DNA of 64,000 nt from Lacrimispora indolis DSM 755 (GTDB lineage: Bacteria; Bacillota; Clostridia; Lachnospirales; Lachnospiraceae), in NCBI RefSeq assembly GCF_000526995.1, contig NZ_AZUI01000001.1, positions 1,550,001 to 1,614,000 of the forward strand, in the 5' to 3' direction. The notes under the pieces were generated by a model. It had not been told where the DNA came from. It did not search any database and was given only the letters and a program-made list of their open reading frames with translations. The position numbers were made by a program, and so were the translations under genes. This document shows positions 20,905 to 41,557 of the stretch, one piece after another. Position 1 is the stretch's first letter. Each line of letters begins with the position of its first letter.

Positions 20905-21360
20905 AAAGATCTAAGCCTTACAGGAGAGGAAACTTCCTTTTATTCACTCTGTGCTTTATTTTCTTTGCACTTGGATCTCTGATAACCAGCTTTTTGGTTC
21001 GAAAACTTCCATCAGCGATCCTGCTAAGGACCGCTGAAGTTATTTTTGCCTTAGGCGTACTTCCGCACGGAAAGACTGTGGCAGTCCTATTTTACATACG
21101 GCATATGCTGCGGTCTGACCATTGTAATTTCATATATTATAATGATCAGTCTTCTGCCCTTATATTTTGACGATCAATAGGTCTGGCTAACGGGGCGCTC
21201 CTCATTGGATTCGCCATGAACATAACTGTATTGGGCCACCTATTTGAAATAGGCCTGTAGACCAGAGACCAAAGGTGTATTTGTAATTCTCAGGATCCTG
21301 GGAGGAATAGTTCTTCTTGCTGGAAGCATGATAAACTATACCCCACAGGTGGTAAAATGT
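20905..21360 (+). pseudogene. decayed MFS-type transporter
   Basis: Fragments in shifting frames read as membrane transporter: FFALGSLITSFLVRKLPSAI and LLRTAEVIFALGVL, then a GMCCGLTIVISYIIM-like stretch, SIGLANGALLIGFAMNITVLG, and VFVILRILGGIVLLAGSMIN. Several frameshifts and stops separate them, and the N-terminus is missing. Pattern and hydrophobicity suggest a major facilitator superfamily protein; family assignment is tentative. Confidence 0.45.
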
Positions 21361-21506
21361 AATATTTTCCTAAAAAGATTTAAAAATAAACATCGTTACA
21401 GCGGTTAATATAAAAAATATTAAAATGCCCACACAAACAAGTGAAAGCAAAAAGCGAAAACCCCAAGAGCCCTTATTTTAACCGGTCTATAAGACATTCA
21501 TAAGAG

Positions 21507-21535
21507 AGGCGACAGCCAGATTTGAACTGGAGATC
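21507..21535 (-). other. tRNA-Cys-like 3' end fragment, possible attachment scar
   Basis: The minus strand reads CCAG-TTCAAAT-CTGG, a T-arm, followed by TGTCGCC and T, matching the acceptor end and the U73 discriminator expected of tRNA-Cys. The rest of a cloverleaf is absent upstream. A lone tRNA 3' end is what an integrase leaves at the distal end of an island; the AT-rich accessory region starts right here. The intact tRNA would lie at the other end and is not in the window. Confidence 0.4.
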
Positions 21536-21626
21536 GCTCAAAAAACGTAGGAAAAAGGAGGGTTTGGCGTGCCGGGATGGGTTTGCGCAAGCGGGGGGCA
21601 AACAAAAAAGCAAACTTCTATTGACA

Positions 21627-22424
21627 TTATAAAAAGCTTAATATAATAATAAATTTACAAAATTCATATATCTGCAACGCATGTCGAAAATTACGTACTA
21701 TATAATCAACAAATAAAATTGCCAAATAATTTTCATATATATATTCGTCCATTATAACTTTAAACTGGTTTATTGAAAACTCCTGGTTAAAATTTTCATA
21801 TAAATTTATGATAAATTCGCAAACTTTTATTATTGATTCAGATTTCATTTCACGGTTTAAGTGAAATCTTGAAATATGATTCCATATATAATCATCACAT
21901 TGTTTGTTTTTTCCCCAATACATAGGTTCATATGTATGCTTTACTAAATTATAAACAATCTGACATTGTATATTCTCGTACTTAACTCCGCCCGGCTGCA
22001 AAATAATATTATTATAATGACAATGCATTGTTTTTAGTCTTATATACTTTTTGCACGGTCGCGAACATTGTTTTGATAAGCATGTTTTTATGTCATAATC
22101 TTTTTCGTCTAATTCAATACTTTCCAGCATTCTAGTTTTATATTTTTGATTACACTTAGAACAAGATAAAGACATATTGAACTTACAATGAGTTAAAATA
22201 GACTCTTTTCCATTTTGTTCATATTGACCTTTTTTTTCAACAGAATGTTCTATATCTGAATAGATTTGATTATCAATATCTATCTTTCTGCCGCAGTACA
22301 TGCAAAAACCTTTAGATGATATCCATAAGATCTTTTTGATTTCACCAATGTTATTAGAATTGTAATATAATTTATTTTTTTTCGGATATCTTACATGAAA
22401 CAATGTTGGAAAAACAATATACAT
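21627..22424 (-). CDS. HNH nuclease-like protein, last gene of the BREX-like operon
   Basis: A 265-residue protein with a zinc-finger HNH core: CxxC at 41-44 (GFCMYCGRK), DIEH (57-60), Asn83 and CxxC at 88-91 (LSCSKCNQK). HNH domains cut DNA with one metal ion. It starts one base after the stop of the ATPase gene. The residues after about 100 are unfamiliar. With the DUF262 protein and ATPase it could be the effector arm of a restriction system; SspE and GmrSD carry DUF262 and HNH on one chain or in paired proteins. Function is inferred. Confidence 0.7.
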   Translation of the reverse strand: MYIVFPTLFHVRYPKKNKLYYNSNNIGEIKKILWISSKGFCMYCGRKIDIDNQIYSDIEHSVEKKGQYEQNGKESILTHCKFNMSLSCSKCNQKYKTRMLESIELDEKDYDIKTCLSKQCSRPCKKYIRLKTMHCHYNNIILQPGGVKYENIQCQIVYNLVKHTYEPMYWGKNKQCDDYIWNHISRFHLNREMKSESIIKVCEFIINLYENFNQEFSINQFKVIMDEYIYENYLAILFVDYIVRNFRHALQIYEFCKFIIILSFL

Positions 22425-22425
22425 T

Positions 22426-23382
22426 TTACTTGCATCCTTTAATGTATTCTAATAAAACATTTTCTCTTATTGACAGTTTTTCTAATTTTTCAACTTCACA
22501 AAAAAATTCAGCATTTACGTTTCCTAAGGCAATCTTTTGTGATAGTGCGTCAGTAAAAATCAGATCTCTTTTCTTTCTACCACTTTCAATATCAAATATT
22601 TTTGAATGAATGCTAGATAGCTCGTACAAATCATTACTATCAAAATATACACACTCATTCTGTTCAATTCTGTCATATTCCTTATATATTTTAAGTACAT
22701 CAAAATTTTCAAGTTCTATCAACGTATAAGCTGAATGCACGACTATTATAAACCTAATTGCAGTATACTTATTACATAAAGAATCTAAAAAAAATTTTGA
22801 GTCTTTAAAATCTAAGTGAGCATCATATTCGTCAATAATTATTATCTTACATCCTTGCTCTACAGCAAAATTGACCTCCATCAATATGCGAATTTGAGCC
22901 TGATACCCACTGGATATATGATTTAAATCTATATTATCCAATTTAAAAGATTCTATAGCATCTGTCAATTCACCAAATGGCAAATCTTCATCAAATGTTA
23001 ATCTCTTATTTATAACCTCTTTAAAAAGCTTTTTATAAAAAATCTTTTTTTTATTCAGCTCACTTAAAATTAATTCAGTTCCAATCTCTTCTGAAAAAAC
23101 ATCCTTTGCACCAAAATATTTTTCCTTATTCCTGCATGTTAAAACATCCTTCACCTTAAAATCCTCAAAGGAATTAAATGTTCCTATGGAAGTCTTTATA
23201 ACGCGATTTGGTGAATCAATAAAGTATATGTTTTCATCAAATAGCTTTTCTATCATATCTTTGAGTATTTTTGACTTCCCAGATGAACTCAATCCCACTA
23301 ATACTAAATTCTTATTATTTCTAAAATTTTTTTCTCCCTTAATGCTTTTAACTAGCTCAATAGTAGCTGTTTTAACATTCAT
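22426..23382 (-). CDS. ABC/SMC-like ATPase between DUF262 and HNH genes
   Basis: A 318-residue P-loop ATPase: Walker A GLSSSGKS (30-37), a signature-like HISSGYQAQIR (155-165), Walker B IIIIDEYDAHLD and a switch His in IIVVHSAYT. This order is that of ABC-type ATPases, as in OLD, RecF and SMC-like proteins. The start overlaps the DUF262 stop by 11 bp and its stop is one base from the HNH start, so the three proteins are translated together and probably form one complex. Its likely job is nucleotide-gated control of the nuclease. That is inference from gene order. Confidence 0.75.
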   Translation of the reverse strand: MNVKTATIELVKSIKGEKNFRNNKNLVLVGLSSSGKSKILKDMIEKLFDENIYFIDSPNRVIKTSIGTFNSFEDFKVKDVLTCRNKEKYFGAKDVFSEEIGTELILSELNKKKIFYKKLFKEVINKRLTFDEDLPFGELTDAIESFKLDNIDLNHISSGYQAQIRILMEVNFAVEQGCKIIIIDEYDAHLDFKDSKFFLDSLCNKYTAIRFIIVVHSAYTLIELENFDVLKIYKEYDRIEQNECVYFDSNDLYELSSIHSKIFDIESGRKKRDLIFTDALSQKIALGNVNAEFFCEVEKLEKLSIRENVLLEYIKGCK

Positions 23383-24667
23383 TTTTGAACTTGCCCCTCA
23401 CCAAAATAATTGCATTTTTTAATCTTTTTTCTACACTTCCCTTATTTGATAATGCTGACTTATCAAGTTCTAAATCTTTAGATAAATCCAATCCAAGAAT
23501 CCAATTATAATCTATATACAGATTTTCATGTGTAACATCTAGATACCCCAATTTGCTAAAAGCAACATATAATGCTTCCATTATTAGAATACTACAAGGT
23601 GGACATTTTTCTGTTGGAAACTTAATCATGCTTAAAAATAATTCTATCGAAGTAACAGCTTTTTGTGCCATTATTTTTTTATCTTCATTAACAACACCAT
23701 TATTTTCATCTAAATTAAATAATTCAGAATACTCATCTATTATGGAAGCCAAAGAAAATGCTTTTTTAAAATTTATAATAACAGCACTATCTTTATAAAT
23801 AGAAAAATTATCTAATGCCAAAAATCTAATCAGAGCTTCCATATCATTTCTAACTGCACTATTCCCGAAAATTTTACGCCAATTTTCATTATTATCATTT
23901 AAATTATAAATCAAATCATACAAACAATTATTTATATAAACACCATTTCGTATCTCTTGACTGCTTAATAATTTTCCCCCACTATTTAATAATTTAAAAA
24001 TTTCAGAATATGCTCTTTGTGTGTTATTTCCTCTACATTCTACGTAAACCACATTTAAAGATTTTCTATATAATATACGTTGTGCCTTTTCTGAAAGATT
24101 AGAAAATGTGATTTCTTGTTTTGTTGACTCGTCAATATATTGTTCCTCTCGCAAATTATAATCACGATTTAATTCAAGTACAATTTCTTTTTTTCTTCTT
24201 TTATCTTCTTTGTCTGTACTATTTTCAATTATCCTTTTTTCCTTCATCAACGCAGAGACCTTTTTAAAATCAATTCGTTTATATACCCGATTGCGAATAT
24301 ATCCTAATCCATAAAAATATAAAAATATTGATGTGATCCTTTGTTGACCATCCAGTATCATATATTTTGCATTTTGTTCATTAAAGTAAACATAAATAGG
24401 TGGTATTGGTATAGACTTTATCAAAGAAATAATTAGATTAGTAATTTTAATCTTATCCCATTCAAATGGTCTTTGATACTTAGGAATTTCGTAATTATCT
24501 CTCTCTAGATTGATTATAATTGTTTCTACATCCATAGCTGAAATTCTATTGGCGATACGTGTATCCGTTAATTCACTTAATGCTATTTCTTTTGAATCAA
24601 TATCATTATCACTTATTCTAAAATCCATGTCATCCATCTCCAGCCCAATTTGCTCAATTATATTCAC
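23372..24667 (-). CDS. DUF262 domain protein (SspE/GmrS N-domain type)
   Basis: A 431-residue protein with the DUF262 hallmarks: IPKYQRPFEW (61-70), LDGQQR (105-110) and the later FKLLNSGGKLLSSQEIRNG. DUF262 is the nucleotide-hydrolysing sensor domain of GmrSD type IV restriction and of SspE, which reads phosphorothioate DNA. The DUF1524 HNH domain that SspE carries on the same chain is absent; a separate HNH protein is encoded two genes on. It sits 57 bp after the cysteine desulfurase, inside the BREX-like operon. Confidence 0.82.
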   Translation of the reverse strand: MNIIEQIGLEMDDMDFRISDNDIDSKEIALSELTDTRIANRISAMDVETIIINLERDNYEIPKYQRPFEWDKIKITNLIISLIKSIPIPPIYVYFNEQNAKYMILDGQQRITSIFLYFYGLGYIRNRVYKRIDFKKVSALMKEKRIIENSTDKEDKRRKKEIVLELNRDYNLREEQYIDESTKQEITFSNLSEKAQRILYRKSLNVVYVECRGNNTQRAYSEIFKLLNSGGKLLSSQEIRNGVYINNCLYDLIYNLNDNNENWRKIFGNSAVRNDMEALIRFLALDNFSIYKDSAVIINFKKAFSLASIIDEYSELFNLDENNGVVNEDKKIMAQKAVTSIELFLSMIKFPTEKCPPCSILIMEALYVAFSKLGYLDVTHENLYIDYNWILGLDLSKDLELDKSALSNKGSVEKRLKNAIILVRGKFKNEC

Positions 24668-24724
24668 TATTTTACCCTCTTCCGTAAAAAATATTATAAC
24701 AACTCAGCAACAACCAAGTTAGCT

Positions 24725-25849
24725 TCATGACAACATATGATGTATATTTTCAATCTCATCACATAATTTACTCATTTCATCTAACGTATTATATTTTCCA
24801 ATAGAAATTCGTATTGTACTACTAGCTAAATCTTCTGAGAGTCCTATTCCTCTTAATACATGAGAAATTTCATCCAATCCTTCATTACATGCTGACCCTG
24901 CTGATACACAAATCCCCCTTAGATCCAGTAAATTAATTATAGCCTCTGCCTCTATAGATACAAATGTTACACTTATATTTCCTGGCATATGTTTATCTAC
25001 ACTACCATTAAACAAAATATCACTTATTTGTCGCTGCAATCTATTTCGAACGTAACTTTCCAATTTCATAATATGTGCTTTAGTATCATTTAACTTTTTT
25101 ATATTATTTTCTAGAGCAGCCGCCATACCAACTATTGAGGCAACATTCTCTGTTCCACCTCGCATATGGTTTTCTTGTTTTCCTCCATAAATAATCGGTT
25201 CTATATCTATATTCGCTCTTTTAAATAAAAATCCAATACCTTTCGGGCCATTAAACTTATGTGCTGATGCAGATAATAAATCTACTTCCAAATTATTTAA
25301 ATCAACATTTTCGTGACCAACCACCTGCACGGCATCTGTATGAAAAGTCACGCCATATTGATGTACTATTTCTGATAGCAAATTTATGTCTTGTATAGTT
25401 CCAATTTCATTATTTGCATATGCAATAGATACTAAAGAGGTTTCATTCATAAGTTCTCTCTTAAGTTCCTCTTTATCAACTATTCCATCTTTATCAACAC
25501 TTAGATATATTACTGGTACAGCCTTTCGTTTAGCCGCCTCACAAGAATTAATAATAGCATGATGCTCAATTACCGTTGTTATTATTTGCTTCTTGCTTGG
25601 TATATTGGCATATCCATTAATAACCCAACTATCTGCTTCACTTCCTCCTGAAGTAAAAATTATCTCATTTTCCTTGGCACCAATAATATTAGCTATTCTT
25701 TCTCGCGCTTTGCAAATTGCCTTTCTTGCTTCTACAGCCAAGCGATAACTACTAGAAGGATTACCGTATAAATCTGTCAAATATGGAACCATTTCTTGAA
25801 AAGCCTCAGGGTCCAATTTTGTCGTCGCCGCATTGTCCACATAAATCAT
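24725..25849 (-). CDS. cysteine desulfurase (IscS/DndA/SspA type)
   Basis: A 374-residue PLP enzyme that takes sulfur from cysteine as a persulfide. Visible are the PLP lysine in SASAHKFNGPKG (Lys198), the TGG/HH region (TTVIEHH) and the persulfide Cys321 in VSAGSACNEG. The start at 25849 follows AAGGAATGATATT and overlaps the previous gene's stop. No IscU or tRNA-thiolation partner gene is nearby; the only sulfur-chemistry neighbour is the PAPS-reductase-like BrxP in the same operon. A role as its sulfur donor, like DndA/SspA in phosphorothioation, is therefore likely but not shown. Confidence 0.92.
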   Translation of the reverse strand: MIYVDNAATTKLDPEAFQEMVPYLTDLYGNPSSSYRLAVEARKAICKARERIANIIGAKENEIIFTSGGSEADSWVINGYANIPSKKQIITTVIEHHAIINSCEAAKRKAVPVIYLSVDKDGIVDKEELKRELMNETSLVSIAYANNEIGTIQDINLLSEIVHQYGVTFHTDAVQVVGHENVDLNNLEVDLLSASAHKFNGPKGIGFLFKRANIDIEPIIYGGKQENHMRGGTENVASIVGMAAALENNIKKLNDTKAHIMKLESYVRNRLQRQISDILFNGSVDKHMPGNISVTFVSIEAEAIINLLDLRGICVSAGSACNEGLDEISHVLRGIGLSEDLASSTIRISIGKYNTLDEMSKLCDEIENIHHMLS

Positions 25850-25853
25850 AATA

Positions 25854-26447
25854 TCATTCCTTCCAAACAAAATTTTGAATTTTTTTATCTATCCACCCCA
25901 CTAATCTTTTTCTGTTATTATTAATATAACTTAGCCATTCTTCTTTTATCTCGATACTTTTCTGGTCAGTTGAATTTGAAAAAATCATATATAGATTCCG
26001 CTCAGCACTTCTTGAATACTCTTCAATAAGTTGATTTTTTTGAACGTCTGTTTTCCCTTTCAAATCTTCTGGCCAAAGATAAGCCAGCAATCGATATGGT
26101 ACATAATTGCATAGTGACAAAACATTTCTACGAATTTTTTTATTTAAAGTATTTTGAACAACATCGAATACCTCTGAAACTTTAGATGATTCCATCAAAT
26201 CTTCCTCTTCAATAATCATCACAGCAGTATCAAAAAGTTTATCTAATGGCCGAATCCGATGCTTTATGGCACATACGTCTGAAAATGAATAAGCACACAT
26301 CCAACATGCTAATTCATAAAACTCCAATGTCCTTCGATCCTTTGAAGCATTAATCAAAATAGTTTTTAGGAAATAGAGCTTGTAGCTATTCATTAAATTC
26401 TTACTACAGACCATCTCTTCTAACTCTTCTTCAAAATTTACCATCAA
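25854..26447 (-). CDS. uncharacterised 197-residue protein in BREX-like operon
   Basis: I do not recognise a named family. The protein is helical and charged, with NSYKLYFLKTILINAS near the N-terminus and RRNVLSLCNYVPYRLLAYLW near the middle. The first motif recalls the N-terminal module of some clostridial HNH endonucleases, but no nuclease residues are present. Its start overlaps the BrxL stop by 4 bp and its end overlaps the desulfurase start, so it is surely part of the operon. It may be a subunit or adaptor. Confidence 0.65.
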   Translation of the reverse strand: MMVNFEEELEEMVCSKNLMNSYKLYFLKTILINASKDRRTLEFYELACWMCAYSFSDVCAIKHRIRPLDKLFDTAVMIIEEEDLMESSKVSEVFDVVQNTLNKKIRRNVLSLCNYVPYRLLAYLWPEDLKGKTDVQKNQLIEEYSRSAERNLYMIFSNSTDQKSIEIKEEWLSYINNNRKRLVGWIDKKIQNFVWKE

Positions 26448-27877
26448 AAATCCCTCACTTTAATGTCCGGCATTTTAGGACTGTATTCCATATCCATTAT
26501 TGAAAGTTGTGTTCTGATGATTTTTCGTTTTTCATAAGAAGGCTTAAAACAATATGTTTCAAAATCTTCCCTCTTTATATCTCCAACAGACTCTACATAT
26601 GGAAATAATATTTTCATATAAGCAGTCGCCATACGAATTATTGCAGTAGTATCCCTTATATCAGCATTCTTAGGAATATCAAGCAAATCAGTGACAACTG
26701 AAGCATACCTTGCCATAGCTCGTTGCATAGATAAAATTTCCGAAAAATATTCAACATTTAAAGAATAACCGTCTAGTTTTAAATCTTCTGTAATTCTAGG
26801 TAAATACCATCCTTCAATCATACCATGAAACCTATCAAGAAGTGCTGTGTCATGAAATACTTCCGGCAGTTCCTGGAAATACTTTTTACTAACTGGTCGC
26901 CTGTTATTATCCAAATCAATATTGCCAAGTAAAATCAAACCCGCCGTTGATGTTTGTTTTGCCTGCCCCATAGTAAATGTTCCTTGCTCAAGGTAACCTT
27001 TTAATGCGCCCTGTAATTCTTCCTTATTCTCGAAAATTATGGTCTTTATTTCATCCATTGAGACAAATTCATAGTTAGGAATTATTCCAGGCTTGTTCGC
27101 CGCCATATCATAGAATAATTTTGCTCTAGTTATCTTGCCTCCGCTAATCTGCCAACCATATTTGCTTAAATTGTTAAATATATAAGATTTTCCCGTTCCC
27201 TTAGGTGCCAATTCTACGATATTTAAATTAGGCTCACAGAATACCAGTAAACGTGAGATAAATAATAATTTCTGCGTATATGAATCAAACTGAGTTGAAT
27301 ATGGATTATACTCCATACATTTTATAATAAAATCAATCCAGTCTTTAATAGAAAACCGTTTTCTTGCCTCGCAGTAATATTCAAAGTCCGGAGTATAAGG
27401 CTTAAAGGGTTTGAATTTAACCAATTCAGCATATCCTTTTTCTTTGCCTTCAGGTTGGACATAGTCCAATGTAACGATCCCCCAGTTTTCACCTTCTTTA
27501 ATTACACCATGTTGAGATCGCATAACATAATCATTAATGCGCCCCTCGTTGCTCTTAATACCAATATCCGGTATTGAAAATTTAAACAACCCGGTTTTTA
27601 AATCTGACTCTACAATGATTCTAGCCAAAATTTGGATTGTTTCTCCTTTCATAAGCCGACTTTTAATATCACTGTCTTTTGACGGTATATGCTTATCCAG
27701 AAAAGAAAACAACGCCTGTTTATCAACATTTTCATTCTCATCTGAATACCGTTTGATAAGCCAGTCCTTGATAAAAGAAGGAATATTAATCCCATTAAAC
27801 ATATTATAATGAGTTGCAGTTTTATAAATAGATTCTTCCGGAAAAATATCCCGAATCTTTTGATCTAACTCAGTCAT
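26444..27877 (-). CDS. brxL: BrxL-like AAA+ ATPase of BREX
   Basis: A 477-residue protein with Walker A APKGTGKS (224-231), Walker B FVSMDEI (271-277) and the BrxL-specific pattern around them (NLNIVELAPKGTGKSYIFNN, SGGKITRAKLFYD). BrxL is a DNA-binding AAA+ ring needed for phage exclusion. The protein stops soon after the ATPase region and lacks the C-terminal Lon-like protease domain of longer BrxL. The start chosen (27877) overlaps the PglZ stop by 8 bp and has GGGAGATG before it; a longer frame to 27940 would overlap PglZ by 71 bp. Confidence 0.88.
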   Translation of the reverse strand: MTELDQKIRDIFPEESIYKTATHYNMFNGINIPSFIKDWLIKRYSDENENVDKQALFSFLDKHIPSKDSDIKSRLMKGETIQILARIIVESDLKTGLFKFSIPDIGIKSNEGRINDYVMRSQHGVIKEGENWGIVTLDYVQPEGKEKGYAELVKFKPFKPYTPDFEYYCEARKRFSIKDWIDFIIKCMEYNPYSTQFDSYTQKLLFISRLLVFCEPNLNIVELAPKGTGKSYIFNNLSKYGWQISGGKITRAKLFYDMAANKPGIIPNYEFVSMDEIKTIIFENKEELQGALKGYLEQGTFTMGQAKQTSTAGLILLGNIDLDNNRRPVSKKYFQELPEVFHDTALLDRFHGMIEGWYLPRITEDLKLDGYSLNVEYFSEILSMQRAMARYASVVTDLLDIPKNADIRDTTAIIRMATAYMKILFPYVESVGDIKREDFETYCFKPSYEKRKIIRTQLSIMDMEYSPKMPDIKVRDF

Positions 27878-30323
27878 CAAACAAATCATCTCCCATCTTA
27901 GTTGGCGGTATTGTCTTGAAGCAAAAATATTGATTTTCAATACAAACTTCTATTGTCTGTTCTATCCCACGCTTCAATTTTCCAATCCAAATTTTCTTTT
28001 CTTGGTCATAAATCATATTTATATTCGTTCCATCCTTGGCCATTAGTTGAGCACTATCTGGCTTAGGGCTTATTTTAAACTCCAACTCTTTTTTCATTCC
28101 ACTCACTTTAAGATCTTTCGGGTTAACTTTGTAAGTCCTACTTTTTTTATTACTCTTATGTGCAATGATCACTGGAACTATAATTTCTTCGGGGGTTGCA
28201 CCACCATGAACTTCATACTTGGATGTATTGAAAAGCGATTGCTCATTTAACGAAATTACCCATTGACGAGATCGTTCATCAGTATATAATACATAATCAA
28301 CAGATGATGGGATACTTTGATTGCCTTTCACCAAATAACATCGCCCGTCATGATCAGACTGATCATAATTATATTTCTTTTCACGTTTGAATAGCTTATG
28401 ACCGACACTCGATCCATGATCAGCAATTATAGCAAAGCTTTCGTTTTTATGCTCATATATAATCCGCTTAACAATTCTTTCAATGACAGATAATGCTCTT
28501 TCCAAATTTGCAGCATGATAATAAATTTCTCCATGAATAACATCTCTATCATAATCTACTACCCAGTGATATTTTGAATCATAAAATTCCTTTGCGATAG
28601 AAGTAACTGATGGTAAATGCGATTTCGCATAATTACAATACTCCACTTCGTAGCATTCATGTTCTAACAAAGCCAAAAGATAATCTAAGAATTCTGCACC
28701 AACACCATCTAAAACATATACCGGACCGACAAAATTCTGTTTTTTCAATGTGCTTTCCGGAAACTCTATCTGTCCACTAGTGTACCACTCATAGAATGAA
28801 CCCTCATTCTTATTCCATTCTAATAAAGAGTCATTATATATATTCCCGCTATTTTTTCCTAATCTGCACCTTCTATATAAATCAAAATAAGCAACAAATC
28901 TAGCCGGATAATCCCCTTCAGAAGCAATAAATTCACTTTTACTTAGGTATTCCCATAAATTAGAATATACTTTATTAAGTTCCTTTTCTTCTACTAATCC
29001 TGATCGGAAGAGCCAAATAATCAATTGGCGCTCATAGCTACTGCAATCCGTTAAAATAGGCAACAGTCTTTTTTTTACCTCCAAGGACATTTTCTCAATA
29101 TTTTCCGCTGAAAAATCTGATTCCTTAGTCATATTAATGCTTTCCAATGCTATGGTTGTCTGCCTTCTTATAAGTTCACAAAGAAACTTTTCAAAATACT
29201 CCTCTATTTGCTTTGTGCATCTGATATCATGTTCTATTTTTTTAACTGATAAAATTAATCTTCTTCTCTCTTCATAGATTGTATCATCTAAATTCACCAA
29301 AAAACAAACATAAGCTTTTTCAACAAATTCCTCTACAGATAGTTGTGTCATTGATGACATCATATAAGTAAGATATGATTCTTTATTATTAAATAATATT
29401 ACGTAATTCTGGATCAACCATTTTTCAAAGATTCCTGCAACTTTCCACAAAGAATAAATATTGTCTACTGTAATTTTTTGGGCATTCACTACTTGCAGAA
29501 TTATAGATTTAAGCTGCATTCCATGTGAGGAACGCAGGAGCATCATAAGACGCCTAAAGTACTCATCCGAATCAACTTTATAGGAAACAATATTTTCTAT
29601 TCCATACAAATATAATAATAATTCCTCATAAGTTGAAATTCTCTTTATATTATAAACATTGTCTGGACTGGCTTTTTCATAAAATAGTGAAAGGACTTTG
29701 GAAGTGCAAATAATAGGTTTAGTAACATCTATATTAGATTTTCTCCACATTCCAAACCACTCACTTGAATTAGTAACTTCATTTTCATAAGCTGAATTAT
29801 CCAAGTTATCATCAATAAAGAAAATACGTGGCAAATCTTCAAAATCCATTTCATTTAAGAAAGGATTATACACATCCATGCGCCGATTATTGGCTTTCAC
29901 AATCTTTCTTACTTGACTATAAATTGCAAAGCAAGGAATATATATTCGCCTTTTAACATAATTTCCACTATTCTCCAATTCAAGCAAGCCTAATAATAAA
30001 GTAATAAATTCCGCATTTGATAAAAATCGAGCATATTCTGAAAAACCTACAATAATATAGCTTTTATCTGAGTCTAATGCATATACTTTTTTACGAAATC
30101 TATCAATTGTAATCCAACCATCATCGTGTAGTAAAAAGTTTTGAAAATCCAAAATTTCTACACAATTTTTTGCTAGAGCCTCTACTTTTGTACGAAGCTT
30201 CATTAGATAATTCGAAGTTCCATTTGATAACTTCATGCTAAAAAATCTTATTGGATAGCGATCATATGATCCTTGGCGATTTAAATCACTTTGAATAATG
30301 TCAACCATACTATCTATATCCAT
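27870..30323 (-). CDS. pglZ: PglZ, alkaline-phosphatase-superfamily BREX protein
   Basis: An 817-residue protein with the PglZ domain in its C-terminal half: VYVLDGVGAEFLDYL (535-549), the metal-binding IIADHGSS (632-639) and SDHDGRC (656-662), and a C-terminal beta-rich region. PglZ is the hallmark of every BREX type; its target is unresolved. The N-terminal 500 residues are helical, as in type 4 members. It starts 15 bp after the BrxC stop and overlaps brxL. Confidence 0.9.
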   Translation of the reverse strand: MDIDSMVDIIQSDLNRQGSYDRYPIRFFSMKLSNGTSNYLMKLRTKVEALAKNCVEILDFQNFLLHDDGWITIDRFRKKVYALDSDKSYIIVGFSEYARFLSNAEFITLLLGLLELENSGNYVKRRIYIPCFAIYSQVRKIVKANNRRMDVYNPFLNEMDFEDLPRIFFIDDNLDNSAYENEVTNSSEWFGMWRKSNIDVTKPIICTSKVLSLFYEKASPDNVYNIKRISTYEELLLYLYGIENIVSYKVDSDEYFRRLMMLLRSSHGMQLKSIILQVVNAQKITVDNIYSLWKVAGIFEKWLIQNYVILFNNKESYLTYMMSSMTQLSVEEFVEKAYVCFLVNLDDTIYEERRRLILSVKKIEHDIRCTKQIEEYFEKFLCELIRRQTTIALESINMTKESDFSAENIEKMSLEVKKRLLPILTDCSSYERQLIIWLFRSGLVEEKELNKVYSNLWEYLSKSEFIASEGDYPARFVAYFDLYRRCRLGKNSGNIYNDSLLEWNKNEGSFYEWYTSGQIEFPESTLKKQNFVGPVYVLDGVGAEFLDYLLALLEHECYEVEYCNYAKSHLPSVTSIAKEFYDSKYHWVVDYDRDVIHGEIYYHAANLERALSVIERIVKRIIYEHKNESFAIIADHGSSVGHKLFKREKKYNYDQSDHDGRCYLVKGNQSIPSSVDYVLYTDERSRQWVISLNEQSLFNTSKYEVHGGATPEEIIVPVIIAHKSNKKSRTYKVNPKDLKVSGMKKELEFKISPKPDSAQLMAKDGTNINMIYDQEKKIWIGKLKRGIEQTIEVCIENQYFCFKTIPPTKMGDDLFDD

Positions 30324-30338
30324 GCAATCCCCCCCTAA

Positions 30339-33300
30339 TTAGAGCAAATTATCTACCTCTTCTGCAATATTACTATATTTCTTCATCAATACTATAAGAA
30401 CATTATACAATTTCTCTCCATTAGACTTAACTGCAAGAAGTTTGTCTCCAACACGCTTCATGACATCATCTTGCGAAGTTATTCCGCTATTATTATCCGT
30501 GTTACTACCAACTTCATCTTCTTGTTCTAAAACTTTTCCATCTTCACTTGTCTGACTAGACTGATTATTTGATTGACTTCCTTCCTCTGCTTTCTTCTTA
30601 ATTTTCCAAAGTAATATTTGCTCATGAATATCACTTTCTTCCCAAAAAACGATGTCTCCAGACATTTTTCCATTTAGAAATGATTTTACAGCAGGTAATG
30701 AAATGCCATCTTCTTCGATTTTCTTTAGTTCAGACAAAATATAAGCATCCAAACACTTCTCACTCTCAACGCTTGAAATTGCATTGGATATTTCAACATC
30801 AAAAGTTTTTATCCCTTCCAAGAGATCTATAATAAACGCCTGTAAAATATTCTCGTCTGTGCTTTTAGAAAATTTAAACAGTTTATCAATGAATTCACAA
30901 TACTTATCAGTATTATTACCAACGTGTTTCAACGCCCATAGAGGAGCCTTATTCTTACTTTTGAATTTATCGCGGATTGCCCATTTAGTTCCCAGCAATC
31001 CATCTTTATCTTTTATACCAAAAATGGCATTAAGTTTTTCAGTAAGTTCTCGTTCTTCCTCCGTACTCATTCTAACAATAAATTTGTCATTAAACTTACC
31101 TCCTTCCCAATATATAAAAATTGAGACAATTACCTCTTTCATCACCGTCTTATCGATCCTCTGCCCATTTCCAGAGGTATATAATCGGTCGCAATAAGGC
31201 TTCAAAGCAAAAGCTAATGCCCCCATAAATAATCTATTCTGATAGTATCCATATTCTGGTCTTGTAAGAAACTTAAGCTCCTCAGCCAAATTTATTGAAG
31301 GCTCATTTTTCTTTGCTTCAATTTTTCGTTGAACTTCCTTACACACTTTAACAACAGGAATTTTTTCATCATCAGAAATAAGTGTTAGTGCCTCATCAAA
31401 AAGTAGTGTATTATCAAATGAAAGCAAATATTTTACTGCTCCATCATTTCCTTTTGCTTCCTGCTCTAAACTCGATTTGCTAAGTGAATAGAGCACAAGC
31501 TCAACTGCCTTCTTACTAGTCTGGTGATTCCAGACAGTGTTTGGAACCGCCAAGCTGTCAAGGCCATATCTAAAGATAGTGTTTATATAATTATCTTTCA
31601 AATATTTATTACACTGTAAAAAAGGTACATGAAGAATATCCCCCCGGAAAATCAAATCAACCATTCCAGAAGTAATAATTTCATCAACCCACTGCGTTAT
31701 CCATTTTTCTGCATTTTTCTGTCCCTCGATACGTTCTTCATCCATTTGCAGGGAACGTGCTACTGCCTCTTGAGCCAAACTATCCATATATGCTTCAAAA
31801 CGTTTATTGCCTAATTCCGTATTGGTTGCGACAAAAACGATGTTTTGAAATTCTGGTTCTTTAGATATTCTCAAAATCATGTTTTGGGATACATCTAACT
31901 TGGATTCTGTTCTTCCTAAAATCTCATCCAAATCATGTGTCACACCTCTATACACAATTAGAGCGACATGAAGGTTATATGATGCTTTAAATTTTGCTTC
32001 AACACGTCCTTTTAAAATATGCTCTTTTTCTCCGCCCCAAAATACTTGCACATCAACTTCTCTGGCAATATTCCTAGATATACTATTCTTTAATTTTCCA
32101 AGACACTTAATAGAATATTCCTCAAGGACTTTGCTTACATCCTCTTTATTTGGATATAGCTTTTTCTTTTCCTCCAATATCTTCTTTTGGGGAAGAGCTG
32201 ATGAAGCAACCTCAAAAATCCCATCTGGATTTCTATGGAGAATCTGGGCATCATCTATATCATCCAAAATTTCTTTAACCCTAGCCTCAGCAAGTGCACC
32301 ACTAAACGCAGCTATAATATTACCCGTGCTTGGATTGACCATATTCTTCTCAGATGAATCTGCATCTGTAGTCGTCATGCGGTATAAAATATTCAGCAAA
32401 AGAATAGTTTTAAATACTGATACATAGCTTTCCCCTTTCGCTTCTACAGACTCAATCGCTAACTTATATTTATTTGTAATTGCATCAAAATGACCAGCTG
32501 GACTAGTCTCAAATGTATTATAGAAAAAATCCCAAACATAATCCGCGGTCAGGAACATTGGATTATCAATTTCATTTTTAATAAATTTCTTAAAACCATT
32601 ATCCTCATCATTTAAGAATCCAAAGATACTTCTTTCAGCCTCTCCTACTACCCTTGAAACAAAAGTAGCCAAGTAAGAAGTATATGGATGAAACGGATAC
32701 AAACTGATGATTTTATTTTTGACCTCCGTTGCATTTGGTGCATCACCATCAACAACTTGATCTACTACTTTTATTACGCTAACAATATCTAGCAAATTTT
32801 TCTGTCGTAATTCATCAAGTACAACCGGTTGCTTTCTATCTAATGCCCCCGCCAGTATGTGATAAGTAGTCGTTGGCTGCATGTCATAATCTAACTCAAT
32901 GAATCTGGCCTTAGCCATGGTCCTCTCATCTTCTTTAAGTTCCTTATAGCTTTCTGTCTGTTCTAATCTCTTATGTGTTATAATAAGAAGATATACTCCG
33001 AGAGTATCCGTTCCTTGCTCCACCTCTGTTTTGCTTAATTCAGCGATATCCTGCATAACATTAAGTATACTTCTTCTTGCCGGTATATCTAAAAGAGAGG
33101 TGAATTCATCCCAGAAAATCATTAAATAATCTGCAATTCCACGTTCTGCTAGTTCTTTCTTAATTTCTGTCAACCACTCAACAATGCTATGTGTTCTAAA
33201 TCCGCCTAATCCTGCCCTCTTTAATTCATCTGCAATAATTCTAATGACCTTAGTTTCATAATCTTCCAACACCTGTATGAGCTGTGCCTTATTTGAAGCA

Positions 33301-33845
33301 TAACTATGTAACTCAATATTATTAGCCAACAGATTATCAAAAAAAGAATCTAGCGTCCCATTATTTAGGATTTGAAGCACAGATTGAAAATCCGTCTTTG
33401 TCGATATTTCAATGCCTTTATCTTTCAAAGCAGCTAAAACACGTTGTTGAATCACATATGTAAGATCTGCTACATCAGTAATTGCATATATGCCCTTAAG
33501 TACAACAGGAAATACTTTTTTTTCTTTACGAAAATTTGTGATGCTACTTCTAAGCTGGGTCTTGTTAAGTCTTGGTAAATAATCTTCTATTGTATCAAAA
33601 TCGTCACATAATAAATGTTTAATCACAGCCAGAGAATGACTTTTTCCTGTTCCATATGTGCCCTGAATCCAAACAGAATTGCGGTTGTTATAAACAGGTG
33701 AAGTGAAACAATTTATGATTTTCCTCATGTTGTTTTCAAACTTCTCATTGGATATAAATGTTTTCCAAGCATCGCCACGATCTGAGGTAATATCGAAAGC
33801 AGACTTAAAATGTTTTTCTACACCTACTATATCTGAGTATCTCAT
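30339..33845 (-). CDS. brxC: BrxC/PglY-like large P-loop ATPase of BREX
   Basis: A 1168-residue ATPase with Walker A GTYGTGKS (62-69) and Walker B LMIFWDEF (241-248), in the size range and layout of BrxC (about 1200 residues). A low-complexity Ser/Gln/Glu-rich linker lies near residues 1085-1120. BrxC is essential for BREX protection and probably acts with PglZ. The gene starts 8 bp after the small zinc-ribbon gene, inside the operon. Confidence 0.9.
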   Translation of the reverse strand: MRYSDIVGVEKHFKSAFDITSDRGDAWKTFISNEKFENNMRKIINCFTSPVYNNRNSVWIQGTYGTGKSHSLAVIKHLLCDDFDTIEDYLPRLNKTQLRSSITNFRKEKKVFPVVLKGIYAITDVADLTYVIQQRVLAALKDKGIEISTKTDFQSVLQILNNGTLDSFFDNLLANNIELHSYASNKAQLIQVLEDYETKVIRIIADELKRAGLGGFRTHSIVEWLTEIKKELAERGIADYLMIFWDEFTSLLDIPARRSILNVMQDIAELSKTEVEQGTDTLGVYLLIITHKRLEQTESYKELKEDERTMAKARFIELDYDMQPTTTYHILAGALDRKQPVVLDELRQKNLLDIVSVIKVVDQVVDGDAPNATEVKNKIISLYPFHPYTSYLATFVSRVVGEAERSIFGFLNDEDNGFKKFIKNEIDNPMFLTADYVWDFFYNTFETSPAGHFDAITNKYKLAIESVEAKGESYVSVFKTILLLNILYRMTTTDADSSEKNMVNPSTGNIIAAFSGALAEARVKEILDDIDDAQILHRNPDGIFEVASSALPQKKILEEKKKLYPNKEDVSKVLEEYSIKCLGKLKNSISRNIAREVDVQVFWGGEKEHILKGRVEAKFKASYNLHVALIVYRGVTHDLDEILGRTESKLDVSQNMILRISKEPEFQNIVFVATNTELGNKRFEAYMDSLAQEAVARSLQMDEERIEGQKNAEKWITQWVDEIITSGMVDLIFRGDILHVPFLQCNKYLKDNYINTIFRYGLDSLAVPNTVWNHQTSKKAVELVLYSLSKSSLEQEAKGNDGAVKYLLSFDNTLLFDEALTLISDDEKIPVVKVCKEVQRKIEAKKNEPSINLAEELKFLTRPEYGYYQNRLFMGALAFALKPYCDRLYTSGNGQRIDKTVMKEVIVSIFIYWEGGKFNDKFIVRMSTEEERELTEKLNAIFGIKDKDGLLGTKWAIRDKFKSKNKAPLWALKHVGNNTDKYCEFIDKLFKFSKSTDENILQAFIIDLLEGIKTFDVEISNAISSVESEKCLDAYILSELKKIEEDGISLPAVKSFLNGKMSGDIVFWEESDIHEQILLWKIKKKAEEGSQSNNQSSQTSEDGKVLEQEDEVGSNTDNNSGITSQDDVMKRVGDKLLAVKSNGEKLYNVLIVLMKKYSNIAEEVDNLL

Positions 33846-33853
33846 ATGTCCTC

Positions 33854-34045
33854 CTATAGGAACAACGTACAGCCCTCTTCCTTAAATTGAACTATCTTGT
33901 CCTCAAGTATTTCTCTATCTGTGTTTAAATAGTTGCTAAGACAATCCAAGCAAAGAAATTGTTTCGTGTTCTTCCCAAGTAATTTTTTATTTAGGGAAAC
34001 CTCATCTTTGCTGAGGCCCTTAGTACATTCAATACATCTTTTCAT
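33854..34045 (-). CDS. small zinc-ribbon protein between brxP and brxC
   Basis: A 63-residue protein with two Cys pairs (RCIECTKGLS and LCLDCLSNYL), a likely zinc ribbon. It starts one base after the brxP stop and ends 8 bp before brxC. The tight spacing and an AGGGTATAGG-like upstream sequence support it as real. It could be a DNA-binding or bridging subunit of the BREX-like complex. I know no characterised relative. Confidence 0.7.
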   Translation of the reverse strand: MKRCIECTKGLSKDEVSLNKKLLGKNTKQFLCLDCLSNYLNTDREILEDKIVQFKEEGCTLFL

Positions 34046-34046
34046 C

Positions 34047-36494
34047 CTATACCCTCTTTAAAAACCGCTTTAAGACAGCGAAAGAAGTAAACTCACTTAT
34101 TAAGTGGATATTTTCTAATCCTCCTAATAGATCTGCTGATAATACTTCATTTGTAGTCAGGCCTCTAAGTGCATTCATAAAACTTACACTATCCATGTTA
34201 AAAACATTGTATACTCCCATACACCCCTTTTCATAGATATCTGAAACAGTTAATTCGTACATATCATTAATTTCTGCATTTTTATATAGTAAATATGCCA
34301 CCGAAGCTGAAGATATTTTTGAAGTACCATACCTCCTAATAGTTTTAACTGCAACCCCCTTTTTGGTGAGTAGCCCAATTTTTAGGCTGCTATCATCTCC
34401 CCTATCAATAGTTCCTAATGGAGAATTTGTAAAGGTATTTACCAATGCATCAACCGGATTTCTCAAAGTGGCCCCTTTAAGCGTTGGGTAATTTTCCTTC
34501 AGCAATTCTACCAGTTCAACCTTAGAATACTCCATCTCGTTCTTAGTATTATTAACATACCAATTAGCAATCGAAGAATTGAAAGACAAATTAATCCAAA
34601 TGATCTGCCATACTTGCAACGGATTTGAATCATAAACTGAACTCAAAAGCTTGGCCAAATCTGTCACTTTTTTCTCTTTTAAATCCACTAGTTCTGCTTC
34701 TCGAAGCCAGTTAATCATTGCGGTAATCTGTTTGGGTCCTAGATCACTATATCCATCAAACCAACCATCCATTAATTCGAAGAAAGCCGTCAGCCACTCA
34801 GCTCTCAAACCGAATGTTGAATACCTATCTATACCTGATGTTTTTGTAGCTGTTCCCATCGTTCCTCCTCCTTCATACATTAGCTTTCTAGTGGCAATAA
34901 TACAGCCCTTAGTATTAATACCGAAACAATTATTACAATGGATACATCTCTCTCGATCTATCTCGACAGAATCACGGATTGTCAATGCACCAGTCGGGCA
35001 TTCAATCTCACACACACCACACAGCTCACAATATGCTGTCTTTGTAAAAACTTTTGTTAAATAGCTAACAAGAAGAATCTTATTAGTTGTACCCATTGCC
35101 TTAAATCTGATAGAATTCTTTCCATACCTGACATCAAATTTAACAACAGTTCCTTTAAACTTCAATTCTCCTTTATAATAATTCTCGTCTATTTTCTCAA
35201 GGAAATATTCTCCCAATGTGAAAAACCATTTTTCCCAATCTACCTTAGGATTCAAGACAATACATTCAAAATTAGGTTCTTTTGATAAGACATCTACTCT
35301 TGAGGCATCAGGAATAAGACCCTTTCCTCCAGCGTTCTTCTTCCAATTACCAGAAGAAATGTACTCATTAATTTTCGTTTGAGATGTGATTCCTATATTC
35401 TTGGCCATATCTTCAACTACACTAATATAGTTTTTAGCCACTTCAGGGTAACGCTTTCTAATTACATATTCAGACCAATCAGATGCAAATGGGCAAACAC
35501 CACAGCCAACACGGGTCAGCCCCATTGTATATGCAGGATTAATCCTAATATCATTCTTGTACATGTACAGATAAATTTCTGTAGTATTCCATTTGAGAAT
35601 TGCACGGCAGTTAATCAAATTGACATGCTTTACGCCATCACCAACTCGACCATATGATTCTCGTCGCGCACTCTCATCATTTCTAACTCCCTCAAACACA
35701 ACTAGCTTAGGTTGTAAATCTGTTTCAAGAAGTTCCTTCATCTTTCGTCCAAATAATGCCGTTTTTAAAACAGAACAGCACCATCTATTCAAACGACTTG
35801 GGGGCCCATAGTCTTTCCATAGATCCAATGCATCTTTTTTACTTTTTGCATGTTCTAACTTAAACTCTGGATATCTCTGTTTATAAAATTTTTCAGTATT
35901 TTCAACCGTTTCAATAGTACATGGCAATTCCATACCCGTATTAGTAAAAACAACCTTATATTTTTCAGAAGGAATCACTCTACTTACCAAATCCAAAATT
36001 ACTTGTGAATCCTTGCCTCCACTAAATGCAACTACATAACCAGAAATATTTTTCTCTTGGTAAAACTCATACTTTTCTTTTATAAAATCCATCGCCTCAT
36101 TTTCAGCAACTGTTATCTGATCTAAATTGGCCTTCACTAAAACTTCCAAATCAATTGGATTCAATACCATTTTATAAGCTTCAGGATTTACAATAACTGT
36201 TGGGTCGTCATAAATGTTTCCTTTTTTAGTCTCTGCGATAACTCCTCCACAATAGTAATACTTCCTATCCATCTCCCAACAAATAGGAACATTTTCCTGT
36301 GGTAATTGAAAAGCCTCATCTAGCCCCAACATTCTAAATTCTTCTACATATACAGGTCTGGGGGAATTAAGCGCATCTTTTTCTTCTATATACTCGGATA
36401 ATAGTATCCCATTGTTTTCGCTGTCCCACTTTATCTTAAACATCGCGAATGTATCTCCTAACTGCGCTATTTGGCTCCATTGTTTTTTACCCAC
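34047..36494 (-). CDS. brxP: BrxP-like PAPS-reductase/ferredoxin fusion of type 4 BREX
   Basis: An 815-residue fusion. Residues about 140-345 are a PAPS-reductase/ATP-pyrophosphatase domain with the PP-loop SGGKDS (158-163) and cysteines at 239-240, 331 and 334 that could hold an Fe-S cluster, as in DndC/SspD. Residues 489-531 form a ferredoxin domain with two 4Fe-4S motifs (C489, C492, C495, C499; C517, C520, C523, C531). Residues 545-815 resemble DUF4007. PAPS-reductase-like BrxP defines type 4 BREX. The desulfurase in the same operon suggests sulfur transfer to DNA. It overlaps the HTH leader gene by 28 bp. Confidence 0.88.
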   Translation of the reverse strand: MGKKQWSQIAQLGDTFAMFKIKWDSENNGILLSEYIEEKDALNSPRPVYVEEFRMLGLDEAFQLPQENVPICWEMDRKYYYCGGVIAETKKGNIYDDPTVIVNPEAYKMVLNPIDLEVLVKANLDQITVAENEAMDFIKEKYEFYQEKNISGYVVAFSGGKDSQVILDLVSRVIPSEKYKVVFTNTGMELPCTIETVENTEKFYKQRYPEFKLEHAKSKKDALDLWKDYGPPSRLNRWCCSVLKTALFGRKMKELLETDLQPKLVVFEGVRNDESARRESYGRVGDGVKHVNLINCRAILKWNTTEIYLYMYKNDIRINPAYTMGLTRVGCGVCPFASDWSEYVIRKRYPEVAKNYISVVEDMAKNIGITSQTKINEYISSGNWKKNAGGKGLIPDASRVDVLSKEPNFECIVLNPKVDWEKWFFTLGEYFLEKIDENYYKGELKFKGTVVKFDVRYGKNSIRFKAMGTTNKILLVSYLTKVFTKTAYCELCGVCEIECPTGALTIRDSVEIDRERCIHCNNCFGINTKGCIIATRKLMYEGGGTMGTATKTSGIDRYSTFGLRAEWLTAFFELMDGWFDGYSDLGPKQITAMINWLREAELVDLKEKKVTDLAKLLSSVYDSNPLQVWQIIWINLSFNSSIANWYVNNTKNEMEYSKVELVELLKENYPTLKGATLRNPVDALVNTFTNSPLGTIDRGDDSSLKIGLLTKKGVAVKTIRRYGTSKISSASVAYLLYKNAEINDMYELTVSDIYEKGCMGVYNVFNMDSVSFMNALRGLTTNEVLSADLLGGLENIHLISEFTSFAVLKRFLKRV

Positions 36495-36643
36495 TCATCG
36501 ATTTCATTAGTATTAAATCTCCAAAGACGTTCAATCTTGTGAGCAGGCATTCCTCTTTTATTAATCCACTTTAAAGCTGTATCTCTGCTAATACCTAGAT
36601 GTACACAAATTTCTTTCATTGACAGCCATCTATCAGTTCCCAC
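36467..36643 (-). CDS. excisionase-like helix-turn-helix protein, operon leader
   Basis: A 58-residue protein with a MerR/excisionase-type HTH: WLSMKEICVHLGISRDTALKWI, then a wing (MPAHKIERLWRFNTNEIDEW). The start is GTG at 36643, with GAGAGG eight bases before it; an internal ATG would lose half the HTH. It is the first gene of the BREX-like operon, and its last 28 bp overlap brxP in another frame. A promoter and a 22-bp palindrome lie 50-110 bp upstream, so it may autoregulate the operon. This is inference. Confidence 0.8.
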   Translation of the reverse strand: MGTDRWLSMKEICVHLGISRDTALKWINKRGMPAHKIERLWRFNTNEIDEWVKNNGAK

Positions 36644-36695
36644 TCTACTAACCTCTCAAGCATAATTTACTTTATGTAAAAAGTACCATTTTATC

Positions 36696-36724
36696 ATTGT
36701 AGCATAGGTATTATTAAATGACAA
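36696..36724 (-). promoter_or_regulatory. sigma-A promoter of the BREX-like operon
   Basis: On the minus strand TTGTCA (36719-36724), a 17-bp spacer and TACAAT (36696-36701). Transcription would start near 36689, giving a leader of about 45 nt before the HTH gene. It is the only good promoter seen before the 15-kb operon. Confidence 0.72.
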
Positions 36725-36732
36725 TATTCCTT

Positions 36733-36754
36733 CAGATTAATATATATTAATCTG
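36733..36754. promoter_or_regulatory. 22-bp perfect palindrome upstream of BREX-like promoter
   Basis: Two perfect 11-bp arms (CAGATTAATAT and its complement) meet without a spacer, 8 bp upstream of the -35 element. A further half-site AGATTAATAT lies at 36774-36783. The arrangement suits a dimeric regulator; the HTH leader protein is a candidate. Confidence 0.6.
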
Positions 36755-36783
36755 GAATTATGATATTTTTTAGAGATTAATAT

Positions 36784-37017
36784 TATACTTCTATATGTTT
36801 ATATTGTTTTATACTGTTTTACAAAGGTTTTTATAGAAAATCATACTCTTAGCAAAACAATTGACTTAGTAATTTTTTTGATTTAGGAAACAACTGTACT
36901 TTTTATTTCGCAATATAGGTATCTAATCTTTTTATTCACAAAAAATAAGCCCTTTTTCACTAGTTGCCCCTATGGACCTCAACCATAGGAGCAATTAACC
37001 ATACAATGAATTTGATT
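36784..37017. other. intergenic region between BREX-like operon and DUF5688 gene
   Basis: AT-rich, with no gene seen. At 36964-36994 there is a hairpin (TTGC-C-CCTATGG with CCATAGG-A-GCAA, 7-nt loop) just after the DUF5688 stop, which probably ends that transcript although a T-run is lacking. Confidence 0.45.
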
Positions 37018-37944
37018 TTATTCTATAAAACTAATACTACAATCATGCCGAGAATACTTATAAATCATATCTGACAATACATCCTCCTTGGGCACTTCAC
37101 TTTCATTTATCTGATCAACCGTTTTCTGCAGCTCCCCATAATCCAAATTCCCATCATCAGGAACCAATATAACTTCGTGCGTACTCGACGGCAATATAAT
37201 AATATCTGAATTTAGAGAATCGGCAAAATCCTTCAAGCAACCATCGTATAAAATGCACCCGGCGCCGTTAATCTGCTTTTTATTTGAAAGCACATACAAG
37301 GGCGGTCTCTGAGAATCAAAATCCAGCAAATCATTTACCAGCCCAGCCATTTCTAATTCCTCTAAACATCCCTTTAAAATATCACACACAATCTCTTTCA
37401 TCGTTTTAATTTCCGGCGGCAGCAACATTGGAGTATTCCTCTTTGCAAAGCGATACAGTTCCTCTTTCTCCACTCCCCACGGCTCCATGTGTGAGTTATG
37501 GATCAAAGTCGTCATTTGTCCTCCTCTATGTTCATCCAGAATTAGATAAAACACCATTGCCAGGTCCAGAAATTCAAAATATGGAACATCCTTTAAAAGC
37601 TCCTTATTCTTTTCTCTCTGGATCAGTTTGAAAGCCACCTTACCCTTCAGATTATTAAAATCCAGAAGCTCTCTCATATCACCAAAAACTACATCATTAT
37701 TTTCCTTATATGCAGATATAATATCTTCCAGAATTTCCTGCAGTGACATACCATGGGTAAAATGCATATAGTATGAATTCAAGTAAATTGTGGGAGCGAT
37801 ATTTTTACTTACTTTCCCAATAATCAGCCCATCCAGCACAATTCCATTATTTTTCGTAATCTTCTGAATGCGAATCTCATAATCTCTTCCTAATCTTTCC
37901 TGCACTGCTGCTCTGACTTCCACTAAAAACTGATTGTAATTCAT
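37018..37944 (-). CDS. DUF5688 family protein
   Basis: About 308 residues, matching the DUF5688 pattern seen in Lachnospiraceae (MNYNQFLVEVRAAVQERLG, APTIYLNSYY, VKNDLL-like C-terminal half). Function is unknown; many copies occur on clostridial mobile elements. The start at 37944 is preferred because AGAGGAAGAACAA precedes it and the family begins there; an ATG 33 codons upstream at 38043 has no ribosome site. Confidence 0.75.
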   Translation of the reverse strand: MNYNQFLVEVRAAVQERLGRDYEIRIQKITKNNGIVLDGLIIGKVSKNIAPTIYLNSYYMHFTHGMSLQEILEDIISAYKENNDVVFGDMRELLDFNNLKGKVAFKLIQREKNKELLKDVPYFEFLDLAMVFYLILDEHRGGQMTTLIHNSHMEPWGVEKEELYRFAKRNTPMLLPPEIKTMKEIVCDILKGCLEELEMAGLVNDLLDFDSQRPPLYVLSNKKQINGAGCILYDGCLKDFADSLNSDIIILPSSTHEVILVPDDGNLDYGELQKTVDQINESEVPKEDVLSDMIYKYSRHDCSISFIE

Positions 37945-38137
37945 TTGTTCTTCCTCTACTTTCTTACTCTTATTTTTAACAACAAAAAGAAGCATCTCCT
38001 TAGAAATGCCTCTGACAGAAAAATCACTTATTCTTTTACCCACTTCACATAGCCAATCTCACGCTCATTTACCAATGCAAAATAAAGCAACATAAATGAA
38101 GCTATAATCTCAACTCAAACTACAACTTCTATCCTAT

Positions 38138-41514: not shown

Positions 41515-41557
41515 TTTCTCATCCCTTTCATTTTAGTTCATTTAATTAATTTGAAAA

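Follow-up and report, generated by a model that had tools for sequence, protein, structure and literature searches.

The 64,000-nucleotide stretch of Lacrimispora indolis DSM 755 analysed here (the window; G000:C1:1550001-1614000 in a single-contig genome of 6.38 Mb) carries an operon in which a type 4 bacteriophage exclusion (BREX) system, intact by its gene content, is followed by a cysteine desulfurase and a three-gene nuclease cassette, NsnABC (Table 1). The operon reads HTH_17, BrxP, a 63-amino-acid zinc-ribbon-like protein, BrxC, PglZ, BrxL, a small protein (p197), desulfurase, NsnA, NsnB and NsnC, and its proteins match those of relatives in length and carry the expected motifs. A preliminary description had reported eleven same-strand genes that overlap or lie no more than 60 bp apart; open reading frames (ORFs) read from the DNA confirm this, with all eleven on the minus strand, free of internal stops and either overlapping or 1–57 bp apart.

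Table 1. Features of the operon and its 3′ flank (window positions)
Feature	Position	Strand	Match or remark
HTH_17 regulator, 58 amino acids	36467..36643	-	5′ end of operon; Pfam HTH_17 7.4e-14
BrxP, longest ORF	34047..36494	-	PADLOC BrxP 2.7e-233
Zinc-ribbon-like protein, 63 amino acids	33854..34045	-	two CxxC pairs
BrxC ATPase	30339..33845	-	PADLOC BrxC 1.8e-181
PglZ, alkaline-phosphatase superfamily	27870..30323	-	PADLOC PglZ 6.6e-48
BrxL, MCM-like ATPase, type 4 form	26444..27877	-	PADLOC BrxL 2e-199
p197 small protein	25854..26444	-	related to N-terminal domain of HNH_4 proteins
Cysteine desulfurase, predicted sulfur donor	24725..25849	-	PADLOC DndA 5.9e-130, SspA 4.6e-129
NsnA, DUF262 NTPase without HNH half	23372..24667	-	GmrSD_N 2.6e-29, PADLOC NsnA 1e-42
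NsnB, small ABC-type ATPase	22426..23382	-	PADLOC NsnB 3.1e-13, PtuA 1.3e-7
NsnC, HNH nuclease, PtuB-like fold (predicted model)	21627..22424	-	PADLOC NsnC 2.3e-83
tRNA-Cys 3′ remnant (21506-21535) and following DNA	21451..21535	-	91 bp past NsnC

The genes are tightly packed. The HTH_17 gene overlaps the longest BrxP ORF by 28 nt; most relatives align from BrxP residue 17–18, so the true BrxP start may fall just past the HTH stop, ~50 nt downstream of the longest-ORF start. Gaps of 1, 8 and 15 bp separate BrxP, the zinc protein, BrxC and PglZ in turn; PglZ and BrxL (ATG at 27877) overlap by 8 bp, BrxL and p197 (ATG at 26444) share one base within TGATG, and the desulfurase (ATG at 25849) begins 4 bp past p197. 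The 57 bp between desulfurase and NsnA form the sole gap above 15 bp, and the cassette closes with an 11-bp overlap (NsnA/NsnB) and a 1-bp gap (NsnB–NsnC). Across 21300-37100, neither promoter-like patterns (76 versus 80.1 in shuffles) nor terminator-like patterns (5 versus 5.6) are in excess, and none of the latter falls in the desulfurase–NsnA gap. From this sequence, a single transcript over all eleven genes is plausible.

BrxP is a PAPS-reductase-type enzyme (PAPS_reduct, 8.4e-27; motifs SGGKDS and CxxCxxCxxxC) with a ferredoxin-like cluster and a C-terminal BrxP/DUF4007-like region. This last stretch matches a short BrxP model (PDLC02511, 2.1e-23) without reaching the Pfam DUF4007 threshold; the BrxP of a Methanosphaera plasmid gives a weak DUF4007 match (0.0014). 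PADLOC models for SspD (7.8e-15) and SspC (3.8e-25) fit BrxP and BrxC less well than their own, and DndC fits BrxP at only 2.2e-8. BrxC and BrxL have Walker-type motifs, BrxL matching both BrxL_N and BrxL_ATPase; PglZ, without a Pfam match, has LDG, DHG and HGG; the desulfurase has SAHKF and SAGSAC. The roles we attach to motifs, here and in the Nsn proteins, are presumed ones. Ten operon proteins were scanned, and among the matches listed (for NsnB, the best 25 of 31 in PADLOC) there is no PglX or other methylase in Pfam or PADLOC, and no DndD or DndE in PADLOC. A scan of the genome collection with BrxL gave 12 loci, making 13 clostridial loci with the window, of which eight (window included) are close by BrxP scores of at least 1400 bits and five are more distant (one a 5-kb fragment). 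The 63-amino-acid protein has only chance-level Pfam matches (best 0.12), and its homologues lie between BrxP and BrxC in 7/7 other nearest loci; the HTH_17 gene keeps its place in six of the eight. By this gene content the operon is an intact type 4 BREX, with BrxP in place of PglX beside BrxC, PglZ and BrxL. The preliminary description is upheld in calling it a BREX without PglX, in placing a DndA/SspA-like desulfurase within it and in recognizing a split DUF262, ABC ATPase and HNH cassette behind that enzyme.

NsnA, NsnB and NsnC follow the desulfurase directly in the order A-B-C, each matching its own PADLOC model. NsnA carries a DGQQR motif and GmrSD_N only, and NsnC has no GmrSD_C/DUF1524 match in Pfam; the SspE/DndI-type fusion of DUF262 with DUF1524-HNH in one protein is absent from this cassette. 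NsnB has Walker A, SSGYQ, IIIIDE and HSA motifs. NsnC has CxxC, EH and CxxCN, resembles PtuB in a predicted structure model and may work like it. In 4/4 BREX-linked loci the GC content of NsnABC lies below that of the core. The neighbouring p197 probably serves to bind DNA or a partner, as a module common to an HNH nuclease family, perhaps with a winged-helix-like fold.

Comparison of relatives reveals that the position behind the desulfurase is a slot with differing occupants. NsnABC fills it in four of the eight nearest loci (the window, L047, L048 and L050), in the same place, strand and order with gaps of 13–67 bp, and in none of the five more distant ones. In 3/13 loci (L045, L049 and L054) the occupant is a DndB-like protein, another DGQHR protein (PF14072; 2.4e-38, 1.7e-33 and 3e-26), whose small partners in L049 and L054 show a GIY-YIG-like pattern with Pfam values (0.038 and 0.021) below curated cut-offs. 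L052 has a p197-HNH-kind protein, L053 (a 5-kb fragment) the N-terminal part of one, and L056 a DUF2971 protein. Three slots hold no recognized gene: the 158-amino-acid protein of L051 looks by eye like a low-molecular-weight phosphatase, a ribonuclease III lies further along in L055, and L046 has a 172-amino-acid ORF without a match, 545 bp on. On a tree of core genes, the presence of NsnABC requires at least two changes. These comparisons of sequence identify NsnABC as an exchangeable accessory, gained, lost or swapped, and not as a fixed restriction half.

The earlier view that the last three genes make up the restriction arm in a single, fixed system is weakened by this distribution and by copies of NsnABC away from BREX. 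The BrxP–desulfurase–NsnABC gene order that it proposed to search for does recur (4/13 loci), the other nine having other or no recognized genes, and the independent drift of the last three genes that it had named as telling against it is largely what these loci, the unlinked copies and the core tree display.

The other type 4 group (BrxC ~1400 amino acids) shows no such slot gene as far as its stretches reach: the 3′ end is in view in L035, L036, L037, L039, L040, L041, L043, L044 and L081 (only ~1 kb past it in L036 and L044) but not in L038 or L042, and within these stretches 0/9 have an adjacent NsnABC, DndB or DUF262 gene. L035 has a 69-amino-acid ORF 6 kb away with a 12-bit NsnA match. 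Ahead of BrxP, nine loci of this group (L036-L041, L043, L044 and L081) have a gene of 528–975 amino acids that is related to the L040 one, with no PADLOC match in three tested and no Pfam match in two; the L081 version has a SAM-like integrase N-domain. L080 (MT835963.1), with a RhuM-family protein after BrxL, and L081 (MT835511.1) are type 4 BREX operons on faecal contigs filed as phage. An archaeal Methanosphaera plasmid (L078, NZ_CP118754.2, 11266-23190) has type 4 BREX followed ~480–490 bp on by a DUF262-GmrSD_C protein.

NsnC itself is rare and scattered, occurring in 8/397 family genomes (the window's and G184 included), 1/398 of the phylum sample and 2/392 of the order sample. Complete NsnABC without BREX genes nearby is present at five loci (L057, L058, L059, L061 and L070) and broken NsnABC at two (L060 and L062), with 9.5–19.9 kb read per locus and the window's BREX proteins as query. 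A neighbour scan of L057-L062 (L070 lies outside it) found FTHFS and FtsK (L059), a SpoIVB peptidase (L058), a SIS/glutamine-amidotransferase enzyme (L061), clostripain (L057), UvrC and FtsH (L060) and MatE (L062). Among the six family genomes whose NsnC is unlinked (L057-L062), G276 (L057) carries an operon of SspD/BrxP type on a different contig, and the other five give no BrxP-type match at 1e-40. Ssp-like operons were seen in L068 (G276), L069 (G340) and L079 (Treponema plasmid pTS1), each made up of a short BrxP/SspD-type match, a 270–300-amino-acid protein (DUF4007 family in Treponema), a 1190–1200-amino-acid protein and a class V aminotransferase-type enzyme. AEP-TOTE primase-helicase proteins lie near NsnABC or BREX in L058 (6624-9593) and L041 (15512-17332); an ORF of 989 amino acids behind NsnABC in L048 (16485-19454) equals that of L058 in length.

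We consider it likely that the operon combines an intact type 4, phosphorothioation (PT) BREX with an exchangeable nuclease cassette behind the desulfurase, here NsnABC, expressed together with BREX but working mostly on its own as a second effector, and not as BREX's obligatory restriction half; the other slot genes of relatives, together with NsnABC that lacks a nearby BREX, favour this. Going by known families, cysteine would be the sulfur source of the desulfurase; BrxP, working with the ATPase BrxC and with PglZ, would place this sulfur in the DNA backbone at sparse motifs, and the BREX core would block unmarked phage DNA. Domains and the NsnC model suggest that NsnB and NsnC would form a PtuA–PtuB-like ATPase–nuclease pair, with NsnA as a nucleotide-hydrolysing DUF262 switch that would hold or release them, in the place of the retron in retron–PtuAB.

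NsnABC might instead lie behind the operon by chance, as a coincidental neighbour in a defence island with no working tie. Its unlinked occurrence, lower GC content and rarity would fit, but a set of genes found in ~2% of the family is unlikely to recur by chance in one place, strand and order at four of the eight nearest loci, and of the three genomes of the family that have the close BREX type, two have NsnC, both linked (p 0.001 with the window; 1/2, p 0.035, with the window left out); we find this explanation quite improbable. A PT-gated restriction arm is another candidate: NsnA would read BrxP-written PT as the DUF262 domains of SspE and DndI do, restraining NsnC from self DNA or switching it on. 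Its appeal is that the window NsnA pairs DGQQR with a P-x-Y-Q-R patch, whose Tyr stands where PT is sensed in SspE (Y30/Q31) and DndI (Y25), according to the available parts of PMC9646914 and PMC11662687. The DGQHR protein in three other slots and the DUF262-GmrSD_C protein behind BrxL in Methanosphaera point the same way. However, the position is Phe in the 3/3 other BREX-linked copies (L047, L048 and L050), Ile in the Methanosphaera protein and Tyr in six of seven unlinked copies (Phe in L070; two of the seven come from broken loci), so the residue does not follow PT/BREX linkage, and the pattern is compatible with PT gating or its absence. P-x-[YF]-Q-R moreover looks like a general feature of DUF262, none of the nine loci of the other type 4 group with the 3′ end in view has such a protein there within the stretch covered, and NsnC resembles, in its model, PtuB, for which no gating by PT is known. 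The SspE analogy of the preliminary description is left unproven by this residue pattern and by an HNH part that is PtuB-like and lacks DUF1524, and we hold PT gating to be rather unlikely.

NsnABC could also be a back-up device that is idle at first and stops the cell only once a phage protein has inactivated BREX or some other trigger has arrived. Section 35 of a 2026 survey (PMC12839542) describes auxiliary or back-up nucleases beside BREX generally, including ParB-HNH (GmrSD) and HNH-ABC-ATPase dyads; in its account, ABC-linked nucleases, HNH-OLD-ABC dyads among them, recur in BREX loci as a suicidal back-up. For the modelled PtuB likeness, excerpts of PMC11555353 supply the precedent that Septu PtuAB degrades DNA and that retron-Eco7 PtuAB brings about abortive infection in which tRNA-Tyr is lost. 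Yet the sequence names no trigger and the described dyads lack a DUF262 partner, which makes a back-up role conceivable but doubtful. A broader proposal, which we regard as speculative and unlikely, is a clostridial type 4 BREX with a dedicated, exchangeable reader–nuclease slot: a DGQ[H/Q]R switch (DUF262 NsnA here, DndB-like elsewhere) would read PT written by the core and license a separate nuclease (PtuAB-like NsnB–NsnC or GIY-YIG-like), as the retron gates PtuAB, with p197 as a nuclease-less adaptor, related to the HNH N-terminal domain, docking effectors on the BREX complex.

Several points weigh against the self-sufficient second effector that we prefer. The sample is small (13 loci, four with NsnABC, L047 and L048 being close relatives), clostridial NsnC relatives P0003-P0027 lie outside the context comparison and the BrxP search left out G610. 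The SspD/BrxP-type operon of G276 means that absence of PT in a genome with unlinked NsnC is not a given. Linked and unlinked NsnC separate in the tree, subject to long-branch warnings: one clade holds the unlinked rows (100/100), a second the window with P0002 (100/99) and the last L047/L048/L050 (99/97). A single BREX-linked NsnABC lineage is not rejected (approximately unbiased test, p 0.32), and the N-terminal region of BREX-linked NsnA, with ORF starts assigned mechanically, is longer than in most unlinked copies. The BREX-linked copies may therefore be a specialized lineage, which would also follow from a real functional tie. The available parts of PMC12839542 take PglZ as the principal nuclease and in those of PMC11931770 type 4 BREX acts in the absence of any restriction endonuclease activity, so that a further cutter may be unneeded.

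Part of this picture is in print. In the sections available, PMC12839542 presents type 4 BREX as a PT system with a desulfurase in 56% of taxa, and PMC11931770 likewise has type 4 BREX making phosphorothioates, with a desulfurase as part of the system. The union of a sulfur donor with BREX, and extra nucleases beside BREX, are accordingly not new; what we add is the slot behind the desulfurase, its occupants and the apparently PtuAB-like nature of NsnABC. The available main text of PMC12839542 lacks DUF262, GIY, URI and DUF2971 and mentions DndB once, not at BREX loci, and the literature searched contained no earlier description of the slot's occupants. For NsnABC, known here from PADLOC-DB models, no relevant paper was among the matches listed (best 25 of 191), and the name itself does not occur in the literature searched. 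DUF262 and DndB-like proteins occupy the same position in PT-BREX operons, and a slot with differing nuclease cassettes yields concrete candidates, open to testing, for an additional cutting function in PT-BREX defence.

Around the operon, the 3′ flank holds an 84% repeat of an intact tRNA-Cys region (G000:C1:1616427-1616511; region listed to 1616553), whose tRNA-Cys-Glu-Asn cluster lies 45 kb away, outside the window. At this identity the tRNA-Cys remnant is an old scar at best, and no integrase was identified in connection with it. Four congeners match 12000-21600 in scattered pieces only, as would be expected of a variable region. Immediately beyond the operon's 3′ side is an IS66-type transposase set (17768-20121, plus strand; DDE_Tnp_IS66 5.8e-95 for 18550-20121), of which we take the two small preceding ORFs to be members. 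Beside the 5′ end is a DUF5688 gene (37018-38043), a family also found beside the distant type 4 BREX of L035 (5869-6819). Further upstream lie a phage-type recombination set of RecT, YqaJ and DUF932 genes (40705-45045) and a DnaJ/YARHG/MORN protein adjoining a choline-binding-repeat protein (45894-49931).

Set beside known systems, the operon shares with type 4 BREX, as set out in the available text of PMC12839542 (section 34), the four core genes, the cysteine desulfurase and the small zinc protein, and has p197, the HTH_17 gene and NsnABC in addition. It has SspC-, SspD- and SspA-like matches to the Ssp system (SspABCD). With SspABCD–SspE and IscS–DndBCDE–DndI it shares a PT writer, a DUF262 protein and HNH activity (predicted in the window), but differs from them in its separate PtuB-like HNH protein, added ABC ATPase, PglZ and BrxL. 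The cassette is unlike the PtuA–PtuB of Septu and retrons in having a third, DUF262 protein and no reverse transcriptase; it is not a two-gene Septu system, and by sequence the Nsn models score above the Ptu models. All three proteins and the A-B-C order agree with the NsnABC of PADLOC, from which the window copy differs in sitting within a BREX operon and, relative to most unlinked copies, in the extended N terminus of its NsnA.

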